A stretch of 52,947 bases of DNA, taken from positions 1-52,947 of the forward strand of contig JANXSD010000142.1 in assembly GCA_025352785.1 (NCBI GenBank), in the 5' to 3' direction. Origin of the DNA: Bacteroidota bacterium. GTDB lineage: Bacteria; Bacteroidota; Bacteroidia; AKYH767-A; OLB10. How positions within the stretch are numbered: position 1 is the first letter of the stretch; every line of letters begins with the position of its first letter. This document shows, piece after piece, positions 537-25,364 of this stretch. A model generated the notes under the pieces. It did not search any database and was not told the origin of the DNA. It was given only the letters and a program-made list of their open reading frames with translations. The position numbers were made by a program, and so were the translations under genes.

Positions 537-541
537 GGGCG

Positions 542-549
542 CAAAAGTA
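542..549 (-). promoter_or_regulatory. Bacteroidota -7 box of tRNA-Ser
   Basis: On the minus strand TACTTTTG matches the TAnnTTTG -7 consensus of Bacteroidota sigma-ABfr promoters. It ends only 5 nt before the mature tRNA 5' end, so the transcript would carry almost no 5' leader. I see no good -33 TTTG at the usual spacing. Confidence 0.6.
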
Positions 550-2338: not shown

Positions 2339-2366
2339 ACCTTTCAATAAAAGAAATTAGATTTGC

Positions 2367-2396
2367 AGGGCTGCCATTAGGCAGCCCTTAGTTTTA
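2367..2396 (+). terminator. Rho-independent terminator
   Basis: GGGCTGCC (2368-2375) and GGCAGCCC (2380-2387) form an 8-bp GC-rich stem with an ATTA loop. A T-rich tail follows about 30 nt after the GWxTD stop codon. Confidence 0.8.
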
Positions 2397-2403
2397 CCCA
2401 TTT

Positions 2404-3444: not shown

Positions 3445-3456
3445 AATTAAAATAAA

Positions 3457-4068
3457 ATGAAAATCATTTGCGTTGGTCGTAATTATGCAGCTCATGCCGC
3501 AGAACTAAACAATCCCGTTGAAGCGAACCCTGTCATTTTTATGAAACCGGATACAGCTTTAATGCAACCTAGGCTACCTTTTTTTTACCCTTCATTTTCA
3601 AATGACATCCATTATGAAACAGAATTAGTAGTAAAAATTAATAAAGTAGGAAAGAATATTGCAAAGAAATTTGCTCATCGTTATTATGATGAGGTAAGCT
3701 TAGGAATCGATTTCACAGCACGTGATCTTCAATCAAAATTAAAATCCAAAGGCCTCCCTTGGGAACTTGCTAAGGCGTTTGATGGATCGGCTCCTGTTGG
3801 ATCATTTATCTCCAAAGAATCGCTAAATCCCATCCAAGATTTGCATTTTTCTTTATTTATCAATGGAGAAATTCGCCAAAAAGGTCATACGGCTTTAATG
3901 CTTTTTACTGTCGATAAAATCATTGAGTTTGTATCTTCTTACATCACACTTAAAAAAGGCGATCTCCTCTTCACCGGTACTCCAGAAGGTGTTGGTCCGA
4001 TTAAAAAAAATGACCTTTTAGAAGCTTACCTAGGTGACCAAAAACTATTGTCGCTGAAGATTAAATAA
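3457..4068 (+). CDS. Fumarylacetoacetate hydrolase (FAH) family protein
   Basis: This 203-residue protein has the compact FAH fold. It opens with MKIICVGRNYAAHAAE and FMKPDTAL. The metal ligands are probably E54 and E56 (HYETELVV) and D85 (GIDFTARD), and it closes with FTGTPEGVGPIKKNDLLEA. Family members split or decarboxylate 2-oxo acids such as acylpyruvates or oxaloacetate in the cytoplasm; the substrate here is open. Its length is close to that of acylpyruvase/YcgM-type members. Nothing nearby suggests an aromatic degradation pathway, so a housekeeping clean-up role is more likely. Confidence 0.88.
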   Translation: MKIICVGRNYAAHAAELNNPVEANPVIFMKPDTALMQPRLPFFYPSFSNDIHYETELVVKINKVGKNIAKKFAHRYYDEVSLGIDFTARDLQSKLKSKGLPWELAKAFDGSAPVGSFISKESLNPIQDLHFSLFINGEIRQKGHTALMLFTVDKIIEFVSSYITLKKGDLLFTGTPEGVGPIKKNDLLEAYLGDQKLLSLKIK

Positions 4069-11220: not shown

Positions 11221-11244
11221 AAGTAGCAAAATGCATAACGATAA

Positions 11245-12054
11245 ATGGGACCAAAACAAAGAGGCATATTTCATGTAGAACTTACTAATAAAAATGTTAG
11301 TATACTTTTGGTTGATGATAATCGTGTCAATCAGTTTCTTGGTAAACGTATTCTGCAAAATCTAGGAATCACAACAGTTGATATCGCCGGTGATGGCATT
11401 AGTGCTTTTGAATGTGTGAAGAACAATTTTTATGATATTTTGCTCACGGATGTAGAGATGCCTGGCATGAATGGCTATGAACTTAGCAAGGCAATTCGCA
11501 GTTACGAAAATGATGAAAAGCATATTACCATTATTGCTTTAACTGCTAATGCTTCTGATGGAGATCGTGAGCTTGCTAAAGATGCTGGTATAGATGATTA
11601 TTTAACGAAGCCGTATAGTCCGCAGGATTTGCAAGAGATCCTTTTAAAGCATTTATCAAAAACGGATCAAATGATCATTGAAGATTTTGCTACTATTAAA
11701 GTTTGTGGTTCCACCGATGCTATGCACCATCTTTATGCAATTTTCAATCATAATAAGGAAGATGTTCGTCACTTTTTACACATGCTTAGTGGGCAAATTC
11801 CTATTTTAACATCTGAAATTAAAATTGGAATATTAAACTCCAATTGGGATCAAGCATTTCAATCGGCACATAAACTGAAATCTCCAGTAAAAATGCTTGC
11901 TGGATCCATTTTAGAAAATCAACTTAATGATCTTACGGAGCAACTCAAAGAAAAAAGGAATACCGAAACCGCCATATTAAATTTTGAAAACATTGCTCCA
12001 GCTCTTGAATCACTTTTAGTACTAGTAAATCGGGAACTCGAAACATTGATGTAA
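11245..12054 (+). CDS. Response regulator with C-terminal Hpt phosphotransfer domain
   Basis: This 269-residue cytoplasmic protein has a receiver at about 16-132, with acidic pocket D24/D25, phosphoacceptor D69 (LLTDVEMPG), T100 and K122. A C-terminal Hpt-type helical bundle follows, with the phosphorylatable His at 209 (SAHKLKSP). Such proteins relay phosphate in hybrid-kinase phosphorelays and lack an output domain. It follows the T9SS operon by 24 nt in the same direction, so it could be cotranscribed and tune secretion or gliding. That link is positional only, and no cognate kinase lies next to it. Confidence 0.88.
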   Translation: MGPKQRGIFHVELTNKNVSILLVDDNRVNQFLGKRILQNLGITTVDIAGDGISAFECVKNNFYDILLTDVEMPGMNGYELSKAIRSYENDEKHITIIALTANASDGDRELAKDAGIDDYLTKPYSPQDLQEILLKHLSKTDQMIIEDFATIKVCGSTDAMHHLYAIFNHNKEDVRHFLHMLSGQIPILTSEIKIGILNSNWDQAFQSAHKLKSPVKMLAGSILENQLNDLTEQLKEKRNTETAILNFENIAPALESLLVLVNRELETLM

Positions 12055-12083
12055 TTCCGAATAATTTTTAACTTAAATTGAAT

Positions 12084-12473
12084 CTATTTATTTAAATCAT
12101 CAAAATCAATATCCGTAAATGAGCTTTTTAACGGCTCAGATTCGCTAATACCACCTTCTGATTTTTCGTAAATTACGTTTTGATCTTGAGTTGAGCTAGA
12201 ATCATCTGATGATCGCTTTTCACGAATAAATTGCAACGAATCCATTAGACCCTCGGTAAATTTCTCAAAATCTTCTTTGTAAAGAAACAACTTATGCTTC
12301 TCAAAGAATGGTCGATCATCACTCTCTCCTGGCTTCTTTTTACTCTCTGTAATTGTAAGATAATAATCGTTAGCACGAGTGGCTTTTACATCAAAGTAAT
12401 AGGTCCTTTTTCCTGCACGAATGCGCTTAGAATAGAATGCTTCACGTGGTTGCGACTGATCGAAATCGTTCAT
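12084..12473 (-). CDS. DUF3276 / PUR-alpha-like nucleic-acid-binding protein
   Basis: This 129-residue protein contains the conserved PUR core YSKRIRAGKRTYYFDVKATR and YYLTITESKKK, followed by an acidic, disordered tail. The family is a bacterial relative of eukaryotic PUR-alpha (as in Borrelia Bpur) and binds single-stranded DNA or RNA, possibly as a regulator. The gene is convergent with the receiver-Hpt gene, with 29 nt between stops. A long AT-rich spacer lies upstream of its start. Confidence 0.9.
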   Translation of the reverse strand: MNDFDQSQPREAFYSKRIRAGKRTYYFDVKATRANDYYLTITESKKKPGESDDRPFFEKHKLFLYKEDFEKFTEGLMDSLQFIREKRSSDDSSSTQDQNVIYEKSEGGISESEPLKSSFTDIDFDDLNK

Positions 12474-12975
12474 AGTTAAGTAATTTCCTTGGCAATAATA
12501 ATAAAAAATAAATTCATTTTAAAGAAAGTTGTTTTTAAAATGCAATTTAAACCGAAAGTATGGTTGATTTAGTTCAATAAATAGGCAATTATTTTTTATC
12601 AAACCGGTTTTAAAAAATCATTCTATTGGCCATATCTTAAGAAACTATTTTAAAAAGAAATAGAGGTAAACGACAACAATTATAATGGATTATATCATGA
12701 AAATTCAATTTTCTGGGCAGTTTATGCCTAATTTCCTTAATAAATCTGGCTAAAATCTGGCTAAATTAAAATTGTTAAATTGACTAAAGTGCCACTCTAC
12801 AAAGCTCAAAAATTACCCATGAATACTGCCTTTTTGCGTCTATAATTACAAAGTGCAAGTTTTATGATTTACCGTATACAACACAGTGCCTTATACAATT
12901 ATTTTAACTTGTTATGTAAAGAATATCATTAAAAAGGCTTTCATTTTTGTAAATGTCTAACCCGAATGGAATTCC
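12474..12975. other. AT-rich intergenic region at the left edge of the stress island
   Basis: No gene is seen in about 500 bases. Two small structures stand out: a 10-bp palindrome AAACCGGTTT at 12601-12610 and a perfect tandem duplication of AAATCTGGCTA at 12742-12752 and 12753-12763. Either could be a protein-binding site for a flanking gene; nothing further supports this. Confidence 0.55.
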
Positions 12976-13373
12976 ATGCCAACTAAAATGAAAGGCACTA
13001 AGAGTATATTTTTAGAGGAAGATGATATAGACGATCAGGATATTTTTTTAGATGCATTAAAAGAAATTGTAAACACAAATTTATTTGCAATAGCCAATAA
13101 TGGTATCGAAGCACTTTACAAACTCAGACACTCCCTACTACTTCTCGATATAATATTATAATGGACATTATTATGCAGGTGATGAACGGAATGGAATGCC
13201 TAATAGCAGTAACACAAAACCCATTAACCATACACATTCCCGTTGTTATTTTAACTACAAATGGTAACAACATGAAACTTATTCATCAACTTGGGGCAAA
13301 AACGATCATTTAAAAGCCTTGTAATTACAAAATCGAGCAAATATGCAATTGGAATTTTAAAATGAATCGATAA
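12976..13373 (+). pseudogene. Degenerate single-receiver response regulator
   Basis: The first frame reads FLEEDDIDDQDIFLDALKE, IANNGIEALYKL and LLLLDI, a normal receiver start, and stops at 13161. The rest continues in another frame from 13161: MDIIMQVMNGMECL, IHIPVVILTTNGNN, HQLGAKTII. A stop at 13311-13313 then falls exactly where the receiver motif would run on to K-P, and the same frame continues with KPCNYK up to 13373. One frameshift and one nonsense codon disable it. An intact relative, a single-receiver protein, lies at 24918-25364. The gene could be translated only as a 61-residue fragment. Confidence 0.85.
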
Positions 13374-13661
13374 TTCGAAAATTATATTTTTCAGTCTTCC
13401 AAAGACCTTTAATAAAAGTTATTTTAATTAAAATACTTCAGATTTTAAATTTTCGTCATTCATTTCTTGTTCTCTCCATATATTCCTTTAAAAATAAATT
13501 TTTGTGGCACATTTTTTTTATATCACTAGTAAGTTCTATCTCTTACAATTATCAATCATGCAAATTATATAAATTAAATATAAAATTGTGTAATATATAA
13601 TTTTAAAAAGCTAAAGAACTTTACTTCATATTACTTATTTAAACAATTAAAAAAAAACAAA

Positions 13662-13985
13662 ATGACAGAAAACCAAAATGACCAACGCAATCAGCAATCT
13701 GATACTAAGTCGCACCAACAACAAACACAGGAAGGTAAAAAAACAACTGAAACCAATCCTAATAATCCTTCTGCATCAAAAAATCCGCAGCAAGGAAAAC
13801 AACAGTATCAGCAGCAAGAATCTAGTTCAAATCAAAATAGGTCAAATAACAATGATCAAAATACTGAAGAGAACGATGAAGAAACAACTGATAAAAGTCG
13901 AAACACAAACAAATCAGTTGATGCCGATGCAAAGAGAAACCAAGAAAAAACAGGAAATTCCACTTCTTCCAAGGGAAATATATAA
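13662..13985 (+). CDS. Hydrophilic Gln/Asn-rich disordered protein
   Basis: This 107-residue protein has 37 Gln or Asn residues, many Ser, Thr, Lys and Glu, one Tyr, and no Cys or Trp. No domain is recognised; it must be largely unfolded. A similar length is open in a second frame over the same DNA, but this frame has its ATG 10 nt after an A-rich leader and ends just before a terminator hairpin. Such proteins resemble hydrophilin-type stress proteins, and its position at the start of the stress island fits, but no function is shown. Confidence 0.6.
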   Translation: MTENQNDQRNQQSDTKSHQQQTQEGKKTTETNPNNPSASKNPQQGKQQYQQQESSSNQNRSNNNDQNTEENDEETTDKSRNTNKSVDADAKRNQEKTGNSTSSKGNI

Positions 13986-14000
13986 TACTTTATTTTCCGA

Positions 14001-14034
14001 ATAACAAACGGGACTTAAAAATCCCGCTTGTTAT
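14001..14034 (+). terminator. Hairpin terminator after the Gln/Asn-rich gene
   Basis: The arms 14001-14013 and 14022-14034 pair over 13 positions with one mismatch around an 8-nt A/T loop, with GGGA/TCCC in the stem. The tail is not a pure T run. It lies 16 nt after the stop codon. Confidence 0.65.
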
Positions 14035-14095
14035 TCAAATTAATTTACAATGCTACAATAAATAACAACAATAGATATACAAACTGATAAAAATT

Positions 14096-14398
14096 ATGAA
14101 AGCAACTCTTCAGTTTCAAAAAACAAAACTCTCACCCCATCATCAAAGTCCAATGATTCAAAAAACATTAAACAGTTTATGCAAATTAACTGGACACACT
14201 TGGCGTTACAAGGATTATTCAAACTGGATGAAAGAGAATGGTGATAAGTATGAATTTAGTGCGTCACGCAATTGTATCATCTGTCATCAAAACGAATATT
14301 TATTTGATGAATGGAAAATAGCTAATCAAAAATCACCCCTTGATGTGGAAAGAGATTCGCATTCATTAAAGCAACTTCCACAATTAGAGGCACATTGA
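14096..14398 (+). CDS. Small zinc-ribbon-like protein
   Basis: This 100-residue protein carries two candidate metal-binding knuckles: C29-KLTG-H34 (CKLTGHTW, the pattern of DUF1660-like small ribbons) and C60-IIC63 with a following His. The segment between them is polar and aromatic (WRYKDYSNW). A shorter start at Met20 (14153) would keep the ribbon and is equally possible. I do not recognise a specific family with certainty and propose no function beyond metal binding. Confidence 0.6.
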   Translation: MKATLQFQKTKLSPHHQSPMIQKTLNSLCKLTGHTWRYKDYSNWMKENGDKYEFSASRNCIICHQNEYLFDEWKIANQKSPLDVERDSHSLKQLPQLEAH

Positions 14399-14707
14399 AA
14401 TAATTTAAGTAACACATTTTCAAAATTCTTGAAGCATGTTTTTTTCCTATTATTTTAATAGAATCTTGGGTTCAAGAAAAGAAGATGATTGGAATTTGCT
14501 TCCAACTTTAAATTTTCTATAAAAAAAACTAATGAATCATATATCGGATTTGTATATAGCTCCCACTAGTGAACAGATAAAACATTTATATTAATGCTTA
14601 AAATAAATGGTAGAGCCGGAGTTCAACAGCACTTTATAAGTGCTAAGAAAAGATGAAGGAATTATTGTTGAGGCAAAATAAATCACCACATTAATCATCT
14701 AAATAAA
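14399..14707. other. Intergenic region without a recognised gene
   Basis: About 310 AT-rich bases. The one clear structure is a short hairpin, AGCACTT (14628-14634) with AAGTGCT (14638-14644), about 65 nt before the DUF4142 gene. It could be a regulatory element of that gene's leader. Confidence 0.5.
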
Positions 14708-15298
14708 ATGAAAAATAAAAAAGAAATTCAAAAGGCTATTTTACATTTGACCTTCTGCACTATAATTTTATTCATTACATCATGTGGCAACAATTCTCAA
14801 CCAGAAGATACAAAAGAAGTTGCCGAAGAGCACAACGATGCCAAATTTGATAATAATAAGCAAGAAAAAGACGCTCAGTTTCTTGTGAATGCTGCTGAAA
14901 TAAATTTGGAAGAAATAAAATTAGGTCAATTGGCACAGGAAAGAGGTAGAGCCGCGCATGTAAAAGAATTAGGTAAAATGATGGAGAATGAACATTCTAA
15001 ATCATTAGTTGCTTTAACTGCTTTAGCAAAAACAAAAATCATAACTATTCCTTCCTCTCCAACTGATAATGCATTGGATGCCTATAAGAAGTTGAATAAT
15101 AAGTCAGGTAATGATTTTGATAAGGCGTATGCTGATATGATGGTTAGCGGACACAAGGATGCCATTAATATCTTTGAAAAAGCATCATTAAATAGTAAAG
15201 ATGCTGATATTAAAAACTGGGCAACAACTATGCTTATTGATTTGCGAAAACACTTAGATTATTCTATAAAATGTCAAAAGGAATGCGAAAAAATATAA
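14708..15298 (+). CDS. DUF4142 domain lipoprotein
   Basis: This 196-residue protein has a lipoprotein signal with lipobox FITSC at C26, then a charged linker and a DUF4142 four-helix bundle from about residue 53 (EKDAQFLVNAAEINLEEIKL, HVKELGKMMENEHSKS, ISVxGH-like MMVSGHKDAI). DUF4142 proteins are ferritin-like bundles of unknown activity, common in envelope and general-stress gene clusters. It likely sits in the inner leaflet of the outer membrane or in the inner membrane facing the periplasm. A ferritin-like YciE/F gene follows 40 nt downstream. Confidence 0.88.
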   Translation: MKNKKEIQKAILHLTFCTIILFITSCGNNSQPEDTKEVAEEHNDAKFDNNKQEKDAQFLVNAAEINLEEIKLGQLAQERGRAAHVKELGKMMENEHSKSLVALTALAKTKIITIPSSPTDNALDAYKKLNNKSGNDFDKAYADMMVSGHKDAINIFEKASLNSKDADIKNWATTMLIDLRKHLDYSIKCQKECEKI

Positions 15299-15338
15299 GA
15301 TATTCAAGACACTTAATAATAACATAAAAAAATAAAAT

Positions 15339-15962
15339 ATGAAAAATCCAAATTTAAAATCCAATGAAAAAGCTTCGTCTCAAAAAAAAAACAAAACTGG
15401 AATAAAATCAAATCCTGAGGCAGCAAAAGGGTTAAGATCTTTATTTATTAACGAATTGAAAGATATTTATTGGGCAGAAAAAGCACTCACGAAAGCAATT
15501 CCCAAAATGATAAAAAATGCGACTGCTCCAGAATTGGTAGATGCCTTAACGGGGCACCTAGAAGTTACTAAAGAACATGTTTCCCGTCTAGAGGAAGTTT
15601 TTAACAGCCTAAGTGAAAAAGCAGTAGCGGTCAAATGTGAAGCAATGGCTGGTTTAACAAAAGAAGCAGAAGAAATAATGGAACAAACTGAAGAAGGAGT
15701 TGTTCGAGATGCAGGAATTATTTCAGCAGGACAAAAAGTGGAGCATTATGAAATAGCTACCTACGGAACTCTTTGTGCCTTCGCAAAAACATTAGGCGAA
15801 GACGATGCCGCAAACTTACTTCAACAAACATTAGATGAAGAAAAAGAAGCAGATGAAAAACTATCACAAATTGCCGAATCCATAATTAATGTTGAAGCTG
15901 CCGATTTAGAAGATGATAATGATTCGAATACACTTGTTACTTCCAAAACAAAACGCAAATAA
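15339..15962 (+). CDS. YciE/YciF ferritin-like protein (DUF892)
   Basis: This 207-residue protein has a Lys/Ser-rich N-terminal tail of about 30 residues and then a DUF892 bundle: LFINELKDIYWAEKALTKAI, HLEVTKEHVSRLEEVF, ISAGQKVEHYEIATYGTL, and a final helix with DEEKEADEKL. The E/H pattern of the helices matches the di-metal site of this family, which is induced by osmotic and other stress in enterobacteria. The C-terminal tail is acidic. It is the first gene of a run of five closely spaced genes up to 17288. Confidence 0.9.
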   Translation: MKNPNLKSNEKASSQKKNKTGIKSNPEAAKGLRSLFINELKDIYWAEKALTKAIPKMIKNATAPELVDALTGHLEVTKEHVSRLEEVFNSLSEKAVAVKCEAMAGLTKEAEEIMEQTEEGVVRDAGIISAGQKVEHYEIATYGTLCAFAKTLGEDDAANLLQQTLDEEKEADEKLSQIAESIINVEAADLEDDNDSNTLVTSKTKRK

Positions 15963-16032
15963 TAAGTTATAAAAATTAACCCGCCAATAAAAGGTTTCAA
16001 TGAGAAAACTTTTGAGGCATAAAACAAAAAAA

Positions 16033-16356
16033 ATGAACACAGGTAAAGTAGTATTAGGAACATTGGCAGGACTTGCCATAGGTGCAATAGCAGGAATCTT
16101 ATTCGCACCAGAAAAAGGATCTACAACACGCAAACAAATCATGGATAAAGGCGATGACTATATCGATGAACTTAAGTCAAAGTTTGATGATTTTGTTGGT
16201 TCACTCAATGATAAATATGAAAGCACAAAAAAAGACGCAGAAGAATTTGCAGATAAAGGTAAATACAAGTATGACGATGCAAAAAAAGAAGTAAAAAATG
16301 CAGCAGCAGAATTTAAAAATAATGCCACAACAGAGATTAAACATGCTATTTCGTAA
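16033..16356 (+). CDS. YtxH domain protein
   Basis: Starting at 16033 (MNTGKVVLGTLAGLAIGAIA) gives the usual YtxH layout: one N-terminal membrane helix rich in Gly/Ala, the APEKGSTTRKQI turn, and a long charged helix with coiled-coil periodicity (about 40-105). The upstream ATG at 16000 would add an Arg/Lys-rich 11-residue extension not seen in the family. YtxH proteins are general-stress membrane proteins of unknown activity. It is followed 33 nt later by a holin-like gene. Confidence 0.85.
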   Translation: MNTGKVVLGTLAGLAIGAIAGILFAPEKGSTTRKQIMDKGDDYIDELKSKFDDFVGSLNDKYESTKKDAEEFADKGKYKYDDAKKEVKNAAAEFKNNATTEIKHAIS

Positions 16357-16389
16357 ATTCAATTTTTAAAAAGTGTAAATCAATAACTC

Positions 16390-16743
16390 ATGACCGACAA
16401 CGCAACACCCATAGAATCATTATTCGAAAGAGTAGAGAACTATAGTAAAACAACGCTTGAATTGTATAAACTACAAGCAATTGACAAATCAGCAGATGTT
16501 GTTTCCTCCTTAGTTTCACGACTAGCAGTTTTTATGGCTGTTGCATTGTCGATTTTAATCATCAATATTGGCTTTGCATTATGGATTGGCGAAGTATTAG
16601 GCAATTCTTATTATGGTTTTTTTATTATAGGAGGATTCTATGCAATTGTTGCAATTTTAATTAATGCTTTCCGACATTCACTGATTAAATATCCTGTCAG
16701 CAACTCAATTATCACTCAAATGCTAAAACAAAAAAATGTATGA
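16390..16743 (+). CDS. Holin-like membrane protein (phage_holin_3_6 / Holin-X type)
   Basis: This 117-residue protein starts with an amphipathic helix (ESLFERVENYSKTTLELYKLQAIDK), followed by two membrane helices at about 45-67 and 73-95, and a basic C-terminus. The layout matches the chromosomal holin-superfamily proteins found beside YtxH genes; despite the name, nothing nearby suggests a phage. It probably acts in the inner membrane. The next gene overlaps it by 4 nt (ATGA), implying translational coupling. Confidence 0.8.
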   Translation: MTDNATPIESLFERVENYSKTTLELYKLQAIDKSADVVSSLVSRLAVFMAVALSILIINIGFALWIGEVLGNSYYGFFIIGGFYAIVAILINAFRHSLIKYPVSNSIITQMLKQKNV

Positions 16744-17156
16744 CACACTTAAATCAAACCGATGCTTTAAACGAAAAAATTATTATTGTTCAAAATAAGC
16801 AAGCGAATGAATTGAAATTGTTAAAGGAACAGTTTCATCATACTTATCAAAGTCTGAGACCAATTAACTTAATAAAATCTACATTACATGAAGTGGAATT
16901 AGCACCTGAAATAAAAACTAACCTATTTAACAATGTCATTGGGTTAACAACGGGATATCTCTCAAAAATAGTTTTGTTTGGTTCATCTCGCAACCCAATA
17001 ACGAAGTTGATGGGCACTCTTTTGCAATTTGCAATGACTAATATTGCATCAAAACATGGGCAGGACATTAAATTAGCAGGTGAAAATATAGTTCATCGCA
17101 TATTGAAATTTAGAATTAACAAAAAAAAAGAATTTCATCATAACGGTGATGCATAA
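16740..17156 (+). CDS. Conserved-type hypothetical partner of the holin-like protein
   Basis: This 138-residue protein is not recognised. The first 60 residues are polar and helical (EKIIIVQNKQANELKLLKEQF), and the middle (FNNVIGLTTGYLSKIVLFGSS, MGTLLQFAMTNIA) is mildly hydrophobic and could lie on the membrane. The C-terminus is basic. The start codon overlaps the stop of the holin-like gene, and the next small membrane gene begins 12 nt after its stop, so it is part of one translational unit. Confidence 0.7.
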   Translation: MTHLNQTDALNEKIIIVQNKQANELKLLKEQFHHTYQSLRPINLIKSTLHEVELAPEIKTNLFNNVIGLTTGYLSKIVLFGSSRNPITKLMGTLLQFAMTNIASKHGQDIKLAGENIVHRILKFRINKKKEFHHNGDA

Positions 17157-17168
17157 TTTATAAAACAC

Positions 17169-17288
17169 ATGAATAGTATTTTCAAGGGACTCATTGCAGG
17201 GTACGGAGCAAAAAAACTAGGAGGAGGTTGTTTAAGCACTATCGTAGTATTTGTTATTATCTGGATGTTACTCGGTCATTGCAATTAG
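17169..17288 (+). CDS. 39-residue membrane microprotein
   Basis: The small frame reads MNSIFKGLIAGYGAKKLGGG, then Cys, then one hydrophobic helix (LSTIVVFVIIWMLLGH) and CN. A basic, glycine-rich N-terminus before one membrane span suggests a cytoplasmic N-terminus. It lies 12 nt after the preceding gene and just before a terminator hairpin, so it closes the YtxH/holin operon. I believe related peptides occur in other Bacteroidota, but that is recollection and has not been checked. Confidence 0.65.
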   Translation: MNSIFKGLIAGYGAKKLGGGCLSTIVVFVIIWMLLGHCN

Positions 17289-17316
17289 AAATATTAGATA
17301 CTAAATAAATAAGAAC

Positions 17317-17342
17317 AATCATTCTTTTTTTAAAGAATGATT
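17317..17342 (+). terminator. Hairpin terminator of the YciE-YtxH-holin run
   Basis: AATCATTCTTT at 17317-17327 and AAAGAATGATT at 17332-17342 form an 11-bp perfect stem with a T-only loop, 29 nt after the microprotein stop. Confidence 0.7.
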
Positions 17343-17377
17343 TATCAAAAATTTGTAAATAATTTAAAATAAAAAAA

Positions 17378-18103
17378 ATGAAATTAAAAATTATCCTAAT
17401 TGTTGCATTCATTGCAATCGCAACAGTTACAATTACAAAATTTTCTTCAATAGGAAAAGCAAGCACCTCGAAAAATAGTTTTAACGCATTGCCTGACCCT
17501 GATATAATAGGGTGGTCAAAAGCCTCCATGATGGCTGTTCAAATGATGAAAAAACAATACGGTGAACCAAATGAAAAAACGGCAACCATGATGATGTGGC
17601 ATAACACAGGGCAATGGTCGCACACTGTTGTATATGCTAAGGAATTTAAGCACGACTTCCCAATGCCCCACACTGATGTGATGGAACAATGGATAAATTA
17701 CAATGTGCCAACTGAAAAGTTTACTGAGCTTGCAATGTATGACGGTAGTATAACATGCAATCGTACCAACGGAACAATTTCTGCCCGTTGCGATAAAGAA
17801 GGAGCAAATTTTCTTGCCATCAATCTTGCTAATGATATCATAAAAGGGAAAAAAGATGTGAAAACAGCCCGCGATTTTTATGCAACTACTGTAAAAGAAT
17901 TTATAAACGGAGGCAAACCTGCCTACATGCAAAAATTACAGTTTGATGTTGCACAAACAAACACAACTGACAGCGACAAGCCCTCTTCGATAATTACACA
18001 AGACGATATGATGAAAATGAAAAAGATGATGGAAATTATGGAAAAAGAAATGATGGGAATGAAAGATGACAAAATGGGCAATGACGGCAATTTGAATAAA
18101 TAA
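17378..18103 (+). CDS. Exported hypothetical protein with Met-rich tail
   Basis: This 241-residue protein starts with a hydrophobic signal segment (KIILIVAFIAIATVTI). The central region (about 40-180) contains WSKASMMAVQMMKKQYGEP, MMMWHNTGQWSHTVVY and FPMPHTDVMEQWINY, with several His and Met residues. The last 40 residues hold a run with ten Met in 26 residues (MMKMKKMMEIMEKEMMGMK). I know no named domain for it. A His/Met-rich exported protein beside a dead copper-binding bundle gene suggests soft-metal binding, but that is a guess. Confidence 0.72.
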   Translation: MKLKIILIVAFIAIATVTITKFSSIGKASTSKNSFNALPDPDIIGWSKASMMAVQMMKKQYGEPNEKTATMMMWHNTGQWSHTVVYAKEFKHDFPMPHTDVMEQWINYNVPTEKFTELAMYDGSITCNRTNGTISARCDKEGANFLAINLANDIIKGKKDVKTARDFYATTVKEFINGGKPAYMQKLQFDVAQTNTTDSDKPSSIITQDDMMKMKKMMEIMEKEMMGMKDDKMGNDGNLNK

Positions 18104-18154
18104 GTTTCTGGTTAAAATAAATATTAATCAAACAAATTTTAAAATACAGGCAAA

Positions 18155-18328
18155 ATGGAAAAGAAACAAAATCAGGAAAGTATTAAAGGCAAATCTGCTT
18201 CGTACTCAAAAGACAATCGAGTTACAAAAGCACTTGACCAAGATAAATCAAAATCATCTGCAACAAAAAATGATGACAAAAATGAAAAATCCTCATCAAC
18301 TTTCGCTAAACCAAAAACAAAGAAGTAA
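18155..18328 (+). CDS. 57-residue Lys/Ser-rich disordered protein
   Basis: The small frame from ATG 18155 (MEKKQNQESIKGKSASYSKD) to TAA 18326 is lysine-, serine- and aspartate-rich with no hydrophobic core. The AAAATGGAA start context and spacing (51 nt after the preceding gene) match its neighbours. It resembles the other hydrophilic island proteins in composition, not in sequence. Probably real, function unknown. Confidence 0.5.
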   Translation: MEKKQNQESIKGKSASYSKDNRVTKALDQDKSKSSATKNDDKNEKSSSTFAKPKTKK

Positions 18329-18409
18329 AAAATATTTTTCTATTAAATAAGGTTTTCGGACTAGTTGAGGGAACTAACATTTATTCAACCAATTTTAAAA
18401 AAAAATACT

Positions 18410-18919
18410 ATGAGCGAAACTAAAAATCTCAACAATAAAGAAGCAATTGATAAATTAAAAAATTTAGTTGACGAGATAAATATTTGTCTATTCTGCACTA
18501 ATCTAAAAACAGACGATGGTTCAAAGTGTAGTCCAATGACAGTACAAAAAGTTTGTGATCAAGGCAATGTCTGGTTTTTCAGCGAAAAGAATAGCGATAA
18601 AAATGAAGACATCGTGCAAAACAAAAGTGTGCAATTGTTTTTTTCCCATCCTGGAAAAAATAGTTACTTAGTTGTAAATGGTGACGCAGAAATAATTATT
18701 GACCGCAAGAAAATAGAAGAATTGTGGAGTCCATTAGTAAAACTCTGGTTTCCTGAAGGCAAAGATGATCCTAATTTATCCATTATTAAAGTAAAGCCAA
18801 CAACTGCATATTGTTGGGACGTAGATGGGAATAAAATGATCAATTTCTTAAAAAGGGCTGCATCAGTTGGCATAGGTAAAAATCTATTAACTGGAAAAGA
18901 GTGTGCATTAAGCATCTAA
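18410..18919 (+). CDS. General stress protein 26-type pyridoxamine 5'-phosphate oxidase-like protein
   Basis: This 169-residue split-barrel flavin-binding protein starts at ATG 18410 (MSETKNLNNKEAIDKLKNLV); the frame is open upstream to a TTG at 18365, but those residues lack family features. It has CLFCTNLKTDDGSKCSPMTV, NVWFFSEKNSDKNEDI, VQLFFSHPGKNSYLVVNGDAEII and LWFPEGKDDPNLSIIKV, typical of COG3871 (GSP26). Such proteins bind FMN or FAD, and their physiological reaction is unknown. It fits the general-stress theme of its neighbours. Confidence 0.9.
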   Translation: MSETKNLNNKEAIDKLKNLVDEINICLFCTNLKTDDGSKCSPMTVQKVCDQGNVWFFSEKNSDKNEDIVQNKSVQLFFSHPGKNSYLVVNGDAEIIIDRKKIEELWSPLVKLWFPEGKDDPNLSIIKVKPTTAYCWDVDGNKMINFLKRAASVGIGKNLLTGKECALSI

Positions 18920-18984
18920 ATCAAATAAATTTTTAATAAGGCAATTCAAAATTAATTTTAATAATAATTTAATAACTCAGCAAA

Positions 18985-19449
18985 ATGGAAAAAGAAAAAA
19001 CAATTGATGTATTGAACTCTCTAATTACAATCAACAACGACCGAATTGAAGGATATGAAACAGCATCCAAAGAGACGGAAGAACAAGATTTAAAAACTTT
19101 GTTTGCACAATTTATACTTACCAGTCAAAAATGTAAGCGAGAATTAGTGAATGAAGTCACCAAATTAGGAGGTCAACCATCCGAAGGGACAAAAAACACA
19201 GGTAAATTTTTTCGTGTATGGATGGATGTTAAGGCTGCTTTAACTGGTAAAGATCGCAAAATGATTCTTGAATCTTGCGAATACGGCGAGGACGTTGCGG
19301 TTAACACCTACAATAAAACCTTAAGAGACAACTCAACAGACCTTTCAGCCGAACATCAAACATTACTTAATGCGCAGCAATCATTAATTAAAGCAGATCA
19401 CGACAGAGTGAAGTCAATGAGAGATAGCTTGGTGGTACAGCATTCATAA
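18985..19449 (+). CDS. DUF2383 / PA2169-family four-helix-bundle protein
   Basis: This 154-residue, entirely helical protein reads TIDVLNSLITINNDRIEGYE, then LFAQFILTSQKCKRELVNEV, then FFRVWMDVKAALTGKD and ILESCEYGEDVAVNTYNKTL, the sequence order of the PA2169 family. The E/H/D pattern suggests a ferritin-like di-metal bundle, with no known reaction. It immediately precedes the wreck of another four-helix-bundle gene. Confidence 0.9.
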   Translation: MEKEKTIDVLNSLITINNDRIEGYETASKETEEQDLKTLFAQFILTSQKCKRELVNEVTKLGGQPSEGTKNTGKFFRVWMDVKAALTGKDRKMILESCEYGEDVAVNTYNKTLRDNSTDLSAEHQTLLNAQQSLIKADHDRVKSMRDSLVVQHS

Positions 19450-19457
19450 CTTGTTAA

Positions 19458-19796
19458 ATGCAAATAATATTTAAAAATAGCTGCCGAAATTATTGACCAT
19501 TGTGTAGAAACATGCCGTAAATGTGTCGATGATTGCATACGTGTGCTAACGATTGCAAAAATGTATTTGGCATGGAAACTTGTAATTGTTTATGTAATGA
19601 ATGTTTGGAAATATGTAGCCAATGGGCTGATAGTTGCGAATCAAATTCTTAGAATAAAATGCTAGCAATGCAAGTATGCATTAAAGTTTGCTAAGCGTGC
19701 GCTGATGAATGTGAAAAACATGACAGCTCAGTATTCAGGAAATGTACTCAAACGTGTCGGTCATGAGCTGATGAATACAGACAAATTGAAGCTTAA
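19458..19796 (+). pseudogene. Broken four-helix-bundle copper-binding protein (DUF326-like)
   Basis: A Cys-rich sequence can be followed across frames: AAEIIDHCVETCRKCVDDC, a one-base loss near 19541-19545, then CANDCKNVF and TCNCLCNECLEICSQWADSC. After stops at 19650-19652 and 19692-19694 it reads ACADECEKHDSS and KCTQTCRS, followed by a third stop at 19764-19766. The repeated CxxxC/CxxC pattern with C..HC and DECEKH matches DUF326 copper-storage-like bundles (Csp family). One frameshift and three nonsense codons rule out a working protein. The exact start is not defined; 19458 is the nearest upstream ATG, in another frame. Confidence 0.85.
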
Positions 19797-19982
19797 TTTA
19801 ATTTAAAATACTATAATTATTTACAATCAAATTAATTTTGAATTATTAGAAACAAAATTCCCAATTTATAGTTAATCGAAGGTAAACGCTCAACTATTCA
19901 TTTCATCGAAAAAATTTTGGTAATTCAATATTTGCAAAAATAGTTACTGGCTTAAATCGTTAATTAATAACGATTCGACCTG

Positions 19983-20027
19983 TCATAAACCGAAGATTGA
20001 AACTTAAATTCAATCTTCGGTTTATGA
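19983..20027. terminator. Strong perfect hairpin, likely bidirectional terminator
   Basis: The arms 19983-20001 and 20009-20027 are perfectly complementary over 19 bp around a 7-nt loop (ACTTAAA). No protein-coding role is seen. It lies between the dead copper-binding gene and the ABM gene. It could also start the leader of the downstream gene, whose ATG is 43 nt further on. Confidence 0.75.
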
Positions 20028-20069
20028 TCATCTTAATATTTAAAATTTATACAATTAAAAGATACCATC

Positions 20070-20390
20070 ATGATAAAATACGCATTACTTGTTACGCTAG
20101 AAGCAAAATATTGCAAAGAAAATGAAGTAGAAGCTTTTCTAAAATCAGCAATTCCACTAGTAGACGCAGAACCAAACACGATAACCTGGTATGCGCTTAA
20201 ACTTGGTGCTAACAAATTTGGAATCTTCGATACTTTTCCAAATGATGATGCACGTAAAGCACATCTTGCAGGTGAAGTTGCGAAAGCACTAATGAAAAAA
20301 GCTCCTGATTTATTTGCTACAGACCCACAAATACAACAAGTGGATGTGCTTGGAGTTAAAGAAACGGAAAAAAAATTCGCTTCCTTATAA
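20070..20390 (+). CDS. Antibiotic biosynthesis monooxygenase (ABM) domain protein
   Basis: This 106-residue single-domain protein has the ABM dimeric alpha/beta barrel pattern: YALLVTLEAKYCKENEVEAF, a central TITWYALKLGANKFGIFDTF and KAHLAGEVAKALMKKAPDLF. Relatives act as cofactor-free quinol monooxygenases or have no assigned reaction. Despite the family name, nothing nearby suggests antibiotic synthesis; quinone or redox stress fits the island better. Confidence 0.85.
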   Translation: MIKYALLVTLEAKYCKENEVEAFLKSAIPLVDAEPNTITWYALKLGANKFGIFDTFPNDDARKAHLAGEVAKALMKKAPDLFATDPQIQQVDVLGVKETEKKFASL

Positions 20391-20471
20391 ATTAATTCAA
20401 TTGCTATTATCAGGAAGGATTATTTTAAATTTTCTTCTCCCTCTAATTTTATGTTTCAAAAAATATTTATC

Positions 20472-20897
20472 ATGGAATCAACATCAGTTCACACTTTCGA
20501 AAATGTGTATGATAAATACAGCCCAATACTATATAGTATTGCACTAGAAATTTCTTCCACACAAAAGGAAGCAGAACAAATTTTAACTGCTACTTTAAAA
20601 TTTGCATACTCAAATAAGTTAATTGAAGAAAATAAACATTCCTTATGTGCATTCCTAATTAAAGCTCTTATTCAGACTGCAAACGAACATTTAAAACCAG
20701 AAAACAATTTTAGATTAAAGCAATTTGAAAATACACCAACATTGCAAAAATTTCTTTGTGAACAAAAATTCATCGATGAACTTTGTTCAGAAAAAAGTGA
20801 AAATCGTTTGCAAGCAGCTAAACAATTAAGGTTTGAACTAAATACCTTGCGCAATCTGAAAGAATCAAATCGCCAAATATACGGAGTTTCATTTTGA
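20472..20897 (+). CDS. Sigma-70 region-2-like protein lacking region 4
   Basis: From ATG 20472 the protein has 141 residues. FENVYDKYSPILYSIALEIS and KEAEQILTATLKFAY correspond to ECF sigma regions 2.1-2.2, and LCAFLIKALIQTANEHLKPE sits where region 2.4 is expected. The rest (AAKQLRFELNTLRNLKESNRQIY) may be the first turn of region 4, but the frame stops there and no helix-turn-helix follows in any frame I read downstream. It is therefore a truncated sigma factor, a sigma-derived regulator or a decaying gene. The resemblance is moderate. Confidence 0.55.
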   Translation: MESTSVHTFENVYDKYSPILYSIALEISSTQKEAEQILTATLKFAYSNKLIEENKHSLCAFLIKALIQTANEHLKPENNFRLKQFENTPTLQKFLCEQKFIDELCSEKSENRLQAAKQLRFELNTLRNLKESNRQIYGVSF

Positions 20898-21184
20898 ATA
20901 TTTTTATCAAACACGGCTTACTTATCAATCATAAGGGACAATATTCTTTCAATAAAATTTTTTGATAGAAGTAAAAAATTCTAATGTATTGCATTTTAAA
21001 ATCATTTATCGCAACTTATTTTTATGGATTGCATTCAAAATTCAAAGCATTGATAATTTCAAATGTGTCCTTTCAAATGTTATTAAGCCGTCATGAACAT
21101 TTAGTTTTCAAATCAAAAGAAAATAAAAAGAAATTAGTCATAAAAAAATATGATGTTTAGCGATTTCATACCATATTTACCATT

Positions 21185-24070
21185 ATGCAACCCGAAAAAG
21201 ACGCACCAAATCAAACTTCTGCAAAAATAACTGCGTCATTTGTTGAACAAATAAAAGCTGGTGGAGTTATTAAAGAGCCTCAGGAATATTTACAAAGACT
21301 TTTTATGTTATCGCCCTATGCCTTCTCCATAATGAAAGGAAAAGACATGATTGTAACTGTTGCAAACAAATTAATGAAAGATTTTTGGGGAAAAGGATTG
21401 AATATAGAAGGTAAAACCTTGCTCGAGATTTTACCCGAATACATTAACCAACCGTTTCCAAGTATGATTGACAGTGTTTATACCACTGGTAATCCTGTTT
21501 ATGCCAATGAAATACTTGCTAAATTAAATTACAACGGTAAAATGGTAGACCGTTATTTTAATATTGTTTACCAGCCTTATCGCGAAATTGATGACACCAT
21601 TTCTGGCGTTATTACAATTGCACATGAAGTAACAAATCAAGTTTTAGAGCGCAGAAAATTAGAAGTTAGCGAAGCATTTAACCGTTCCATATTACAAAGT
21701 AGTCCTGACTGTATTAAGATTCTTGATAATGATGGTAGGATACAGTTTATCAACGATAATGGTCTTTGTTTGATGGAGATTGATGATTTCTCTTTTCTAA
21801 AAAACAGCTATTGGTGGAACTTATGGGAAGAAAGAAGTCAACACCTCATTAAGGACGCTCTAAAAAAAGCAATGTCAGGTGAAAAAGTACAGTTTCAAGC
21901 TTTTGCGAATACACAAAAAGGAACGCCAAAATGGTGGGATGTTATTGTACTACCAGTCCAATTAGGAGGAGAAACAGGCAAGGAGCAACAAATACTTTCA
22001 GTATCAAGAGATATCACAGAATTAAAAGAGGCAACTTTAAAATTAGAAGAAAGTGAGAATCGTTATTCCAATATGATTTATACATCTCCTGCGCTTATTG
22101 CAATTTTTAAGGGAGAACAAATGATTATTGAAATTGCTAACGATGAAATTATTAAAAGTTGGGGTAAGGACAAAAGCATTATTGGCAAATCGATATTTAA
22201 TGAATTACCTGAAACAGTTGAACAGGGATTTGACAAACTTCTATTAAGCGTTTATAACACGGGTAAACCCATTCGAGTTTATGAAGCTCCATTTACACTC
22301 CTTCGCAACGGTAAGCCGGAAATAGTTTATTACACTTTTGTATATCAAGCACAGAAAGATGCAAGCGGAAAAATAATTGGTGTTGCTGTAATAGCTAACG
22401 AAGTAAGCCCACAAGCCGTTTCTAATAATAAAATACGTGCAAGTGAACAACAATTTAGATTATTGGTTCAACAAGCTCCTGTTGCCATTTGTGTATTGCG
22501 TGGTAAAAATTATGTGATAGAAGTGATTAATCATAGAATGCTTGAAATGTGGGACAGAACGTTAAATCAAGTAATAAATATACCAGCGTTTGAAGTGCTC
22601 ACGGAACTTAAAGAACAAGGATTTAAAGAACTTTTGGATAATGTATATAATTCTGGAGAAACGTTTGTAGCTGATGAGCTTCCAATTACTTTAAGACGCA
22701 AAGGCAAACTCCAAAACCTATTTGTGAAATTTATTTACGAGCCCTTGCGTGAAGCCGATGGCACTATTTCAGGAGTTATGGCACTTGCACATGAAATTAC
22801 TGAACAAGTTAATACTCGCAAAAAATTGCAATTGCAGGAAGAAATGGTGAAAGATCTATTATTGAATGCACCAGCCTTTATTTGTACCTTAACTGGACCT
22901 CTTCATGTGTATGATTTAATTAACCAACGGTATCAAAGTATATTTGGCAAACGACAAATACTGGGCAAACCAATTATGGAGGTACTTCCTGAATTAGATA
23001 GACAAGGTTTTGATATCATTCTTGATAAAGTATATCAATCCGGCGAACCTTTTGTGGGAATTGAGATACCAATATTTTTGGCGCGTGGTGAAAATTCAGA
23101 CCATCAATTATACTATTTCAATTTTAGTTGCCAACCTATGTTTGATGAGTACAAAAAAGTATATTCCATCTTAGTTTTTGGTTATGAAGTTACCGATCAA
23201 GTAAATTCAAAAAACAAAAACACTGCAACACTAAAACAACGCGAAAAAGAACTCGAGACCAAAGTACAACAGCGAACGCATGAGTTAAATGATTCCAACG
23301 AATCCCTTAAACAAATAAATGAAGAGCTTAAAAAATCAAATAAAGAGCTAGAATCATTCTCCTATATAACTGGACACGATTTGCAAGAACCTCTTCGAAA
23401 AATTCAAACACTAATAGGAAGACTTGTTGAAAAAGAAAATCATTCATTGTCAACGAAAGGAAAAGATTATTTCAACCGTATACAGGGTGAAGCTACACGA
23501 ATGCGCACCCTCATTCACGATCTACTCGAATTTTCCCGGATCAGTTCAGCAGACCTTAAATTTGAAAGCACTGATCTCACTTCCATTGTTAAAGAAGTGA
23601 TGGAGGAATATCAAGAAACCATTAAAAAGAAAAAAGCAATTATTGAGATCAAGGAGATCTGTAATTTCAAAACAATTCGATTCCAGTTTCGTCAACTTAT
23701 GCATAACCTTATCAGTAATGCACTTAAATTTTCAAACCCTGCAATACAGCCTCATATTATTATCAATAGTCAAATTATAAAATACAATAAGCCTAATCAA
23801 GACAATATCCCACTTCATCAAGAATATTGTCATATTTCAATTTCCGATAATGGGATCGGATTCGAAAAAAAATACAGTCAAAAAATCTTCGAAGTATTTC
23901 AACGTCTACATGGCAAAGAAGTGTATCCAGGTACCGGTATTGGGCTTGCCATCGTTAAAAAAATAGTTGACAACCACAACGGTATCATCACTGCTACAAG
24001 TGCCCTCAAACGAGGCGCTACATTCAATATTTACATTCCTGTAGATGGATTGAAAAATGTTTGTAATTGA
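21185..24070 (+). CDS. Soluble histidine kinase with five PAS domains
   Basis: This 961-residue protein has no membrane helix. Five PAS domains follow each other at about 35-160, 160-285, 290-415, 420-545 and 550-680; domains 1 and 3-5 share a pattern such as SPYAFSIMKGKDMIV and APVAICVLRGKNYVIEV. A short coiled coil leads to HisKA with phosphoacceptor H731 (GHDLQEPLRK). HATPase_c has N845 in NLISNALKF, then SDNGIGF and GTGIGLAIVK. It senses cytoplasmic signals, perhaps through bound cofactors, and phosphorylates a response regulator. The likely partner is the single-receiver protein at 24918. Confidence 0.92.
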   Translation: MQPEKDAPNQTSAKITASFVEQIKAGGVIKEPQEYLQRLFMLSPYAFSIMKGKDMIVTVANKLMKDFWGKGLNIEGKTLLEILPEYINQPFPSMIDSVYTTGNPVYANEILAKLNYNGKMVDRYFNIVYQPYREIDDTISGVITIAHEVTNQVLERRKLEVSEAFNRSILQSSPDCIKILDNDGRIQFINDNGLCLMEIDDFSFLKNSYWWNLWEERSQHLIKDALKKAMSGEKVQFQAFANTQKGTPKWWDVIVLPVQLGGETGKEQQILSVSRDITELKEATLKLEESENRYSNMIYTSPALIAIFKGEQMIIEIANDEIIKSWGKDKSIIGKSIFNELPETVEQGFDKLLLSVYNTGKPIRVYEAPFTLLRNGKPEIVYYTFVYQAQKDASGKIIGVAVIANEVSPQAVSNNKIRASEQQFRLLVQQAPVAICVLRGKNYVIEVINHRMLEMWDRTLNQVINIPAFEVLTELKEQGFKELLDNVYNSGETFVADELPITLRRKGKLQNLFVKFIYEPLREADGTISGVMALAHEITEQVNTRKKLQLQEEMVKDLLLNAPAFICTLTGPLHVYDLINQRYQSIFGKRQILGKPIMEVLPELDRQGFDIILDKVYQSGEPFVGIEIPIFLARGENSDHQLYYFNFSCQPMFDEYKKVYSILVFGYEVTDQVNSKNKNTATLKQREKELETKVQQRTHELNDSNESLKQINEELKKSNKELESFSYITGHDLQEPLRKIQTLIGRLVEKENHSLSTKGKDYFNRIQGEATRMRTLIHDLLEFSRISSADLKFESTDLTSIVKEVMEEYQETIKKKKAIIEIKEICNFKTIRFQFRQLMHNLISNALKFSNPAIQPHIIINSQIIKYNKPNQDNIPLHQEYCHISISDNGIGFEKKYSQKIFEVFQRLHGKEVYPGTGIGLAIVKKIVDNHNGIITATSALKRGATFNIYIPVDGLKNVCN

Positions 24071-24311
24071 ATTAAATGCCTTTATCAATTTCTGTTTTTG
24101 CTATACAAACAACAATTTTTATTAATAATAATTACAGTACATATTACCGTATATAAAAAGGCTGCAACGATAAAGTAATATTTTTGAGGTACTTGATTTA
24201 GCTTCATGTACATGGCGAATATAACTTTAATAAAATGGGGAAAAAATTACCACTTTTCAATTGCGAAATAATATTAAGTCATGTTGGCGCACATATTTGT
24301 ATGATCTCTTA

Positions 24312-24340
24312 ATTGCCATTAAGCAATTATTTTACATTTG
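24312..24340 (+). promoter_or_regulatory. Bacteroidota promoter of the AraC-type gene
   Basis: TTG at 24313-24315 and TACATTTG at 24333-24340 (exact TAnnTTTG) are 17 bp apart. The -7 box ends 10 nt before the ATG at 24351, which supports that start over the upstream in-frame ATG at 24261. Confidence 0.7.
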
Positions 24341-24350
24341 TATAAAGAAT

Positions 24351-24911
24351 ATGAAAATTTACATCAAGTATGACTTAAATGCTGTTTGTAAAAAAATACT
24401 TCAAGAACAATTAGAGAAACTCAAACTTAAATATTCTTTACTAGATTTTAATGAAGTAGAAATAAACGGAGCTTTATCAGCCACAAAATTAAAACAACTC
24501 AATACAGCACTAAATAATTACAGTATACAAATTGTAGAGAGTTCTAAAAGTATTTTAATACAAAAGATAAAAGACGAAATCAGAGAAATGGTATATGGTG
24601 AAGGTGAAACAACACGTTTGAAAACTTCATTATGGTTAGGAGCAAAATTTAAAAAACCCTATAAATATCTCTCTTCTATTTTTACTGAAGTTACTTTCAC
24701 TACCATCGAAAAATTTATCATTCTTCAAAAAGTTGAGCGTTCAAAAGAATTGATAATTGCTAATATACTGAACTTTTCAGAAATTGCAAGTTTACTTAAC
24801 TATAGCAGTACTGCACATTTTAGTGTTCAATTTAAAAATACAACAGGTTTAACACCCTCCGCATTTCAATATATCATTAAAACAAAAGAACATAATCCAA
24901 CCAAATTATAA
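24351..24911 (+). CDS. Short AraC-family transcriptional regulator
   Basis: Starting at 24351 the protein has 186 residues. The first 90 (MKIYIKYDLNAVCKKILQEQ...) are a small domain I do not recognise as a sensor or cupin. The C-terminal part is an AraC double helix-turn-helix: TTIEKFIILQKVERSKELI, FSEIASLLNYSSTAHFSVQF and the family end GLTPSAFQ. The upstream in-frame ATG at 24261 would put the promoter inside the gene. It lies between the PAS kinase and a receiver protein, 6 nt before the latter, so the three probably form one signalling unit. Confidence 0.85.
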   Translation: MKIYIKYDLNAVCKKILQEQLEKLKLKYSLLDFNEVEINGALSATKLKQLNTALNNYSIQIVESSKSILIQKIKDEIREMVYGEGETTRLKTSLWLGAKFKKPYKYLSSIFTEVTFTTIEKFIILQKVERSKELIIANILNFSEIASLLNYSSTAHFSVQFKNTTGLTPSAFQYIIKTKEHNPTKL

Positions 24912-24917
24912 TCAAAA

Positions 24918-25364
24918 ATGCCAAGTCAGCCAATCAATATTTTACTTGCAGATGATGACGAAAACGATAGAATGCTATTTCAAGAAGCATTCGAAGAACT
25001 TAAAATCAAAACCCATGTGTTCACAGTCAATAACGGAACACAACTTATGGATTACCTCAAAGCAAAGAGTACAATACTCCCCGACATTCTTTTTCTTGAT
25101 CTGAATATGCCTCGAAAAAATGGCTTAGAATGTTTAAAAGAAATACGCGCAAATAAAAAACTCAAAAATATTGCAATTGCCATCTATTCCACATCAGCTT
25201 CAGAAAATGACATTGTAGAAACATTCTGTCTGGGAGCAAATGTGTACATTAATAAACCCAGTGATTTTGTTACACTGAAAGAAGTATTATCCAAAACAGT
25301 GATCACAGCACATCAATTTCAAGATACCCCTTTTAATAAAGAAAATTTTCTGTTAAGGTTTTAA
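24918..25364 (+). CDS. Single-domain response regulator (Rcp1-like)
   Basis: This 148-residue protein is a receiver only: acidic pocket ADDDEND, phosphoacceptor Asp in FLDLNMPRKNG, Ser/Thr in YSTSAS and Lys in INKPSD. Such stand-alone receivers, as in cyanobacterial Rcp1, pass phosphate or act by protein contact. It starts 6 nt after the AraC-type gene, and the PAS kinase lies just upstream of that. The broken receiver at 12976 is a distant relative at the other end of the same island. Confidence 0.92.
   Translation: MPSQPINILLADDDENDRMLFQEAFEELKIKTHVFTVNNGTQLMDYLKAKSTILPDILFLDLNMPRKNGLECLKEIRANKKLKNIAIAIYSTSASENDIVETFCLGANVYINKPSDFVTLKEVLSKTVITAHQFQDTPFNKENFLLRF

Follow-up and report, generated by a model that had tools for sequence, protein, structure and literature searches.

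General stress responses in other phyla are run by alternative sigma factors, and the SigB regulon of Bacillus and the PhyR-EcfG regulon of Alphaproteobacteria carry a cargo similar to the one described here, with YtxH, CsbD, GSP26 and YciE/F-like proteins and catalases. In Escherichia coli, an operon with the gene order yqjD-yqjE-yqjK belongs, like elaB, to the stationary-phase genes. Control of ElaB lies with OxyR and RpoS (PMC6389858). The AraC-type hybrid two-component systems (HTCS) of Bacteroides have predicted operators composed of direct repeats averaging 21 bp (PMC3878776). For Bacteroidota, we found no counterpart of RpoS, SigB or PhyR in the open-licence papers searched. Here we analyse a stretch of 52,947 nucleotides (the window; JANXSD010000142.1 in assembly GCA_025352785.1), a single contig from the 3.46-Mb genome of a soil-type Bacteroidota bacterium. 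Between ~12.9 and 25.4 kb it holds an island of at least 15 intact genes, all on the + strand, in which stress-type families stand beside a histidine kinase, an AraC-type regulator and a stand-alone receiver. We read this island, with a probability of roughly 0.6, as a regulon of stress genes assembled at a single locus and run by a split hybrid two-component system. The parts are each of a known kind; their arrangement and the operator-defined stress regulon, as well as the module and operator themselves, are undescribed in the open-licence papers searched.

The island resembles the HTCS of Bacteroides in that a histidine kinase, a receiver and an AraC-type HTH_18 protein would serve one pathway, with AraC binding predicted at a repeat operator of ~21-bp spacing. 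In the HTCS, however, these parts form a single polypeptide with a periplasmic sugar sensor and polysaccharide loci as targets, whereas here they are encoded by separate genes (21185-24070, 24351-24911 and 24918-25364), the sensors are of the PAS or CHASE3-PAS type, the putative targets are stress genes and the AraC-type protein has a small N-terminal domain of its own. Since the repeats have the same 21-bp spacing, and the closest PDB sequence match of the window's AraC-type protein is an HTCS protein (12aw), a split HTCS is the economical reading. The window pair also has the conserved residues of an orthodox two-component pair, namely the phospho-acceptor His and the receiver Asp, Thr/Ser and Lys. 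The E. coli yqjD-yqjE-yqjK and elaB genes share with the island a row of genes in which a small membrane protein rich in glycine is followed by a member of holin superfamily III and then by another small protein; the island differs in having YtxH (PF12732), a third gene without a family match and a candidate regulator of the AraC type instead of RpoS. Unlike the SigB response, the island has no STAS/Rsb partner switch, no STAS-domain or RsbW-type protein being matched by Pfam among its proteins. Unlike PhyR-EcfG, it has no receiver-sigma fusion: its receiver (148 aa) consists of Response_reg only, and a sigma-like protein is separate and degenerate. Models of defence systems found no match.

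Results

Clustering of the stress-gene families

To place the island in the context of its class, five marker families (DUF892, DUF2383, GSP26, DUF4142 and YtxH) were located in 296 genomes, with all YtxH counts being lower bounds. The families co-occur with odds ratios of 6-52, and most pairs stand no more than 10 kb apart clearly more often than expected, also when the window is left out. DUF892 and DUF2383, for example, are that close in 7 other genomes (0.48 expected), and DUF2383 and YtxH in at least 5 (0.40 expected). All five markers fall into one cluster, spanning 4.5 kb, in this window only among the matches listed, with pairs or trios elsewhere. A genome of the same order (G041; G, C and L numbers denote our genomes, contigs and loci) holds two DUF892 genes, YtxH-holin-h138, DUF2383, and kinase and receiver genes within 12 kb. 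The YtxH-holin-h138 trio, three successive co-directional genes at 16000-17156 of the window, keeps its order in L120, L123, L124, L131, L132, L159 and L160.

An earlier note on this DNA had asked whether relatives gain or lose the locus as a block. The families are indeed linked, but a fixed block was not seen: marker combinations change from genome to genome, DUF892 is present in 5 of the 42 genomes of the order, and G009, from the same family, spreads the same families over four different contigs. The changing combinations and this dispersal indicate that the island families are a guild of accessory genes prone to cluster. Within the window's own genome (G000), a second DUF2383 gene adjoins another YtxH gene (L126, G000:C57:7057).

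A recurrent module of AraC-type regulator, receiver and kinase

We then compared, in an unbiased manner, the gene families of marker loci with those of 40 control loci drawn partly from the same genomes. The window's receiver type (14 vs 1 loci), its kinase type (13 vs 0) and h138 (10 vs 1) were enriched around the markers, as were catalase KatE, Ku, DUF72 and lmo0937-type peptides. Of 41 receivers like the window's that score at least 80 bits (45 genomes), 13 have a marker no further than 10 kb away, against 1.07 expected. For AraC-type proteins of the window's subclass (at least 280 bits, 10 loci), 6/10 are within 10 kb of YtxH where 0.08 would be expected; the wider AraC family, present in 141 of the 296 genomes, still gives 11/140 vs 0.64. 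This linkage is seen across several families of the class. The earlier note had reasoned that its proposal of a single unit with its own signalling module would fall if relatives had the families scattered and never carried signalling genes close to them; what was seen is the contrary, with families, receivers and AraC-type genes linked above chance.

The order AraC-receiver-kinase recurs in loci L132, L157, L158, L159, L160 and L162, and the block, found in five genomes (G102, G134, G231 twice, G252 and G302), contains the receivers closest to that of the window. In four of these five genomes it adjoins YtxH or DUF4142-YtxH-holin operons. Behind it, L132, L160 and L159 (G102, G134 and G252) carry genes for DUF4142, an outer-membrane barrel protein, lmo0937, YtxH, holin and h138 in this order, L159 of G252 having one further gene in between. 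Module receivers retain the Asp, Thr/Ser and Lys residues, as does the window receiver (LFLDLNMP, YSTS and KPSD), and their subclass has a common C-terminal tail. The HDLQEPLRK box is conserved among module kinases and appears in the window kinase, with its phospho-acceptor His, as GHDLQEPLRK. The gene order of the window differs from that of the module elsewhere in that the kinase lies upstream of the AraC-type gene. A paralogous receiver and CHASE3-PAS kinase pair stands on contig C125 of the same genome (L161, G000:C125:2315-4560), without an AraC-type gene; behind it come an operator and a gene for 117 aa.

In a single-sequence structure prediction of the AraC-type protein, only residues 1-63 were modelled with moderate confidence (mean pLDDT 45), as a predicted beta-alpha-beta-beta-alpha-beta fold. 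This model gave middling matches to many ferredoxin-like folds, among them the copper chaperone HAH1 (Z 4.9, rmsd 2.9, 63 residues), so that a metal-sensing role of the domain may be taken as a lead only.

One receiver of the AraC-linked subclass (L176, G061:C3:485721) has lost the phospho-Asp (VVFMSYHLP), and an operator precedes its AraC-type gene. On the Runella slithyformis plasmid pRUNSL02 (L223), a member of the wider AraC family, whose N-terminal domain may have a metal-binding fold, adjoins genes for a multicopper oxidase and RND efflux (locus positions 9001-13489), and genes annotated as a CBASS phospholipase and a nucleotidyltransferase lie at locus positions 311-3705. Plasmid-borne relatives had no adjoining stress genes in the two regions read.

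A 21-bp direct repeat at a fixed distance from a promoter box

Regions upstream of module loci, when aligned, share a 20-bp site that is conserved ahead of DUF4142 and CsbD genes. A matrix of this half-site alone did not show stress loci to be enriched over control loci, and no signal appeared until the 21-bp repeat and the box described below were included. At ten of ten upstream sites from other genomes, a second half-site was present at offset 21 (mean score +4.7; all other offsets from 8 to 34 scored -6 or less). The candidate operator is thus a direct repeat of AATnATRTAA at 21 bp, found in other genomes upstream of DUF4142, CsbD, Dps, KatE and DUF892 genes. For the 20-bp site, a strict pattern matched 15 times across six genomes and its reversed version twice; those matches that are intergenic lie upstream of DUF4142, CsbD, Dps and small stress-type proteins, and the remainder inside genes.

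To score the window independently, we built a 38-bp matrix from these ten upstream sites of other genomes, none from the window's own, and left the box out of it. Across the whole window, the site at 13559 ranked first with 19.3 bits, a score reached in 1 of 100 order-2 Markov windows. It lies 103 bp upstream of the first intact gene of the island (13662), within the usual distance of ~87-122 bp. Exact repeat matches in the 3.46-Mb genome number two, the site at 13559 and one placed 102 bp before a Q-rich look-alike of the 107-aa protein that this first gene encodes (L193, G000:C55:1475), where a TTTA box follows as well. With one mismatch there are three matches, one of them immediately behind the receiver and kinase paralogues on C125, and with two mismatches 38, a modest excess over 22 in the reversed control.

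A TTTG or TTTA box begins 60-61 nt past the operator start, that is, 23 bp downstream of the repeat. Among 31 further sites of at least 15 bits in stress and module loci, 24 have the box at this position, where 1.4 would be expected; in a first, partly hand-picked list of sites outside the matrix it was present in 17/17. The -7 element of Bacteroidota is TAnnTTTG, which makes the nearer half-site overlap the -33 region, the placement of an activator site. Control loci, only five of which came from the family richest in operators, had 2 sites of at least 15 bits in 739 kb, one of them (L137) ~1.5 kb before a YtxH gene.

Gene content and extent of the island

The observation of a stress-gene island with signalling genes is confirmed with corrections (Table 1). 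Both flanks are on the - strand, a DUF3276 gene on one side and an ABC-transporter gene on the other, with ~12 kb between them. Pfam recovered the DUF4142, YciE/F, YtxH, GSP26 and DUF2383 families named in the earlier note, along with its three regulators, the kinase (PAS/HisKA/HATPase), the AraC-type protein (HTH_18) and the receiver (Response_reg). The start given there for the island, 12976, is that of a decayed receiver pseudogene; similarity of the holin-like protein to PF07332 (Phage_holin_3_6) is seen, but below the cut-off; and the ABM assignment finds no match in either family library. The two pseudogenes, of a receiver and of a DUF326-type protein, are signs of turnover. Intergenic gaps are mostly short, and gaps of ~280-350 bp set apart the remnant of the receiver, the two genes that follow it, the run from DUF4142 to DUF2383, and the ABM-sigma, kinase and AraC-receiver parts.

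Table 1 Features of the island, in window coordinates
Feature	Position	Strand	Remarks
Weak candidate operator with TTTG box	12885..12949	+	Second-best matrix score of the window (10.0); TTTG at +61; 91 bp upstream of the receiver pseudogene
Receiver (response regulator) pseudogene	12976..13313	+	Frameshift near 13155, stop following 'GAKTII'; pieces jointly Response_reg E 8e-7, just under cut-off
Operator, 21-bp direct repeat AATTATATAA-N11-AATTGTGTAA	13559..13596	+	Predicted; top matrix score of the window
TTTA box (predicted -7 element)	13620..13623	+	61 nt past operator start, position as in other operators
Q/N-rich hydrophilic 107-aa protein	13662..13985	+	Look-alike on C55 likewise preceded by an operator
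100-aa protein	14096..14398	+	No library match
DUF4142 lipoprotein-like protein	14708..15298	+	Pfam E 1e-35
YciE/F (DUF892), ferritin-like	15339..15962	+	Pfam E 1e-57
YtxH	16000..16356	+	Pfam E 5e-19
Holin-superfamily-III-like membrane protein	16390..16743	+	PF07332 E 0.004, 17.7 vs 28.4 bits cut-off; after YtxH in many genomes
h138, 138 aa, third gene of the YtxH-holin trio	16740..17156	+	Homologues in 10 stress loci and 1 control locus
39-aa membrane peptide	17169..17288	+	Kept next to YciE/F in G009 and G014
h241, 241-aa exported protein	17378..18103	+	No Pfam family; homologues in other MAGs
57-aa disordered hydrophilic protein	18155..18328	+	
GSP26-type flavoprotein (Pyrid_ox_like)	18410..18919	+	Pfam E 2e-43
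DUF2383	18985..19449	+	Pfam E 2e-28
Pseudogene, DUF326-type Cys-rich four-helix protein	~19480..19790	+	Several stops and frameshifts; DUF326 20.4 bits, exactly the cut-off
106-aa ABM-like protein	20070..20390	+	By eye only; no Pfam (E up to 0.1) or NCBIfam match
Degenerate sigma-70-like 141-aa protein	20472..20897	+	TIGR02985 E 2e-5, 25 bits vs cut-off 126; missing from the earlier note
Multi-PAS histidine kinase, 961 aa	21185..24070	+	Pfam PAS_4 x5, HisKA, HATPase
AraC-type regulator	24351..24911	+	~65-aa N-terminal beta-alpha-beta domain and HTH_18 (PF12833 E 2e-10)
Stand-alone receiver, 148 aa	24918..25364	+	6 bp past AraC; Pfam E 6e-21; Response_reg only

The exported protein h241 was not found in 40 relatives. 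Copies with 70-79% identity are carried by two other Bacteroidota metagenome-assembled genomes (MAGs), and homologues at 42-52% by Gemmatimonadota, Sphingomonas and other MAGs; the family, which Hyphomonadaceae MAGs share as well, is near-invariant around CDKEGANFLA (loci L013-L036). Its predicted structure has a good core, for which Foldseek gave no match at E 0.001 and VIA-align a best Z of 5.3 over 74 residues, and no solved structural relative was found. The patchy spread of h241 fits the reading of the island as a guild of accessory genes.

Discussion

The promoter signature common to the island and to the same stress genes of other Bacteroidota suggests that they are switched on jointly. 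Together with the linkage of the families and the recurrence of the module, this comparative evidence supports the proposal that the island acts as a single unit with its own signalling module. In the mechanism that we envisage, a stress signal would act on the PAS kinase, which would phosphorylate the stand-alone receiver. This receiver, whose translation follows that of the AraC-type protein directly, would in turn alter the activity of the AraC-type protein through contact with it. The AraC-type protein would bind the two direct half-sites, of which the nearer covers the -33 region, and would aid RNA polymerase in starting at the promoter with the TTTG/TTTA -7 box 23 bp further on. The promoter before 13662 would then fire, and hence probably the co-directional genes behind it, as one transcript. 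Their products would include ferritin-like proteins (DUF892, and by helical type possibly DUF4142 and DUF2383), the membrane proteins of the YtxH-holin-h138 trio, the flavoprotein GSP26 and hydrophilic proteins; as a set, they would shield the envelope, DNA and the redox state when cells grow slowly or dry out.

Several observations weigh against this split-HTCS reading. The window kinase is a soluble multi-PAS protein and not the usual CHASE3-PAS type, and may therefore not be the partner of the receiver. Related genomes were counted as independent, which overstates the significance of the linkage; most operator sites come from one genus; and in G009 the families are dispersed over four contigs. 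For about 15 island genes there is only one strong operator, and gaps of 280-310 bp suggest further promoters. Operators also occur in G245, G303 and G111, which have distant AraC-family members only, and in G189, a genome outside the set that has AraC matches at E 1e-35, so that another AraC-type protein may be the binder.

This last point leads to the alternative that the co-regulated stress set is real, but that its operator is the site of a different AraC-type paralogue or of a regulator encoded elsewhere, with the local kinase, AraC-type protein and receiver serving some other output. The breadth of the wider AraC family, the operators in genomes without the close subclass, and the wider-family member beside multicopper oxidase and RND efflux genes on the Runella plasmid would all agree with it. 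We nevertheless regard it as distinctly unlikely, given that genomes with the subclass have operators in the same short loci (L132, L160, L159 and L157) and that in G061 the operator precedes the AraC-type gene itself. Regulation might also be absent altogether: horizontally gained stress genes may pile up at a parking place between core genes, with the regulators as chance neighbours. A patchy family such as DUF892, the varying marker combinations, the turnover seen in two pseudogenes, and h241, which is missing from 40 relatives yet highly similar in two other Bacteroidota MAGs and present in other phyla, are what such a process would leave behind. It would hardly be expected to link receiver, AraC-type protein and kinase to the same families in distant genomes, or to set a common operator-promoter geometry upstream of the same genes, and we judge it unlikely. 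Control of the genes by an alternative sigma factor, here the degenerate sigma-like protein (20472-20897), would mirror the general stress responses of other phyla, and the protein does weakly match a Bacteroidota sigma-70 subfamily, TIGR02985. Its score is, however, far below the cut-off, Pfam finds no sigma domain in it, no other stress locus has a relative, and the promoters retain the TTTG/TTTA -7 box, which leaves this explanation highly improbable.

Beyond this island, the split-HTCS reading can be extended, tentatively and at somewhat less than even odds, to a general stress regulon of Bacteroidota's own. Such a regulon would combine an AraC-type protein, a stand-alone receiver and a PAS or CHASE3-PAS kinase with a 21-bp repeat 23 bp before a TTTG box, and its core targets would be DUF4142, CsbD, YciE/F, Dps, KatE and the YtxH-holin trio. 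The coordination of general stress in Bacteroidota is undescribed in the literature we found, and DUF4142, DUF2383 and DUF892 are functionally obscure. With an operator, a candidate activator and a kinase-receiver pair in hand, the question becomes testable in a tractable Bacteroidota strain, and the members of the putative regulon can be listed from sequence in other genomes.

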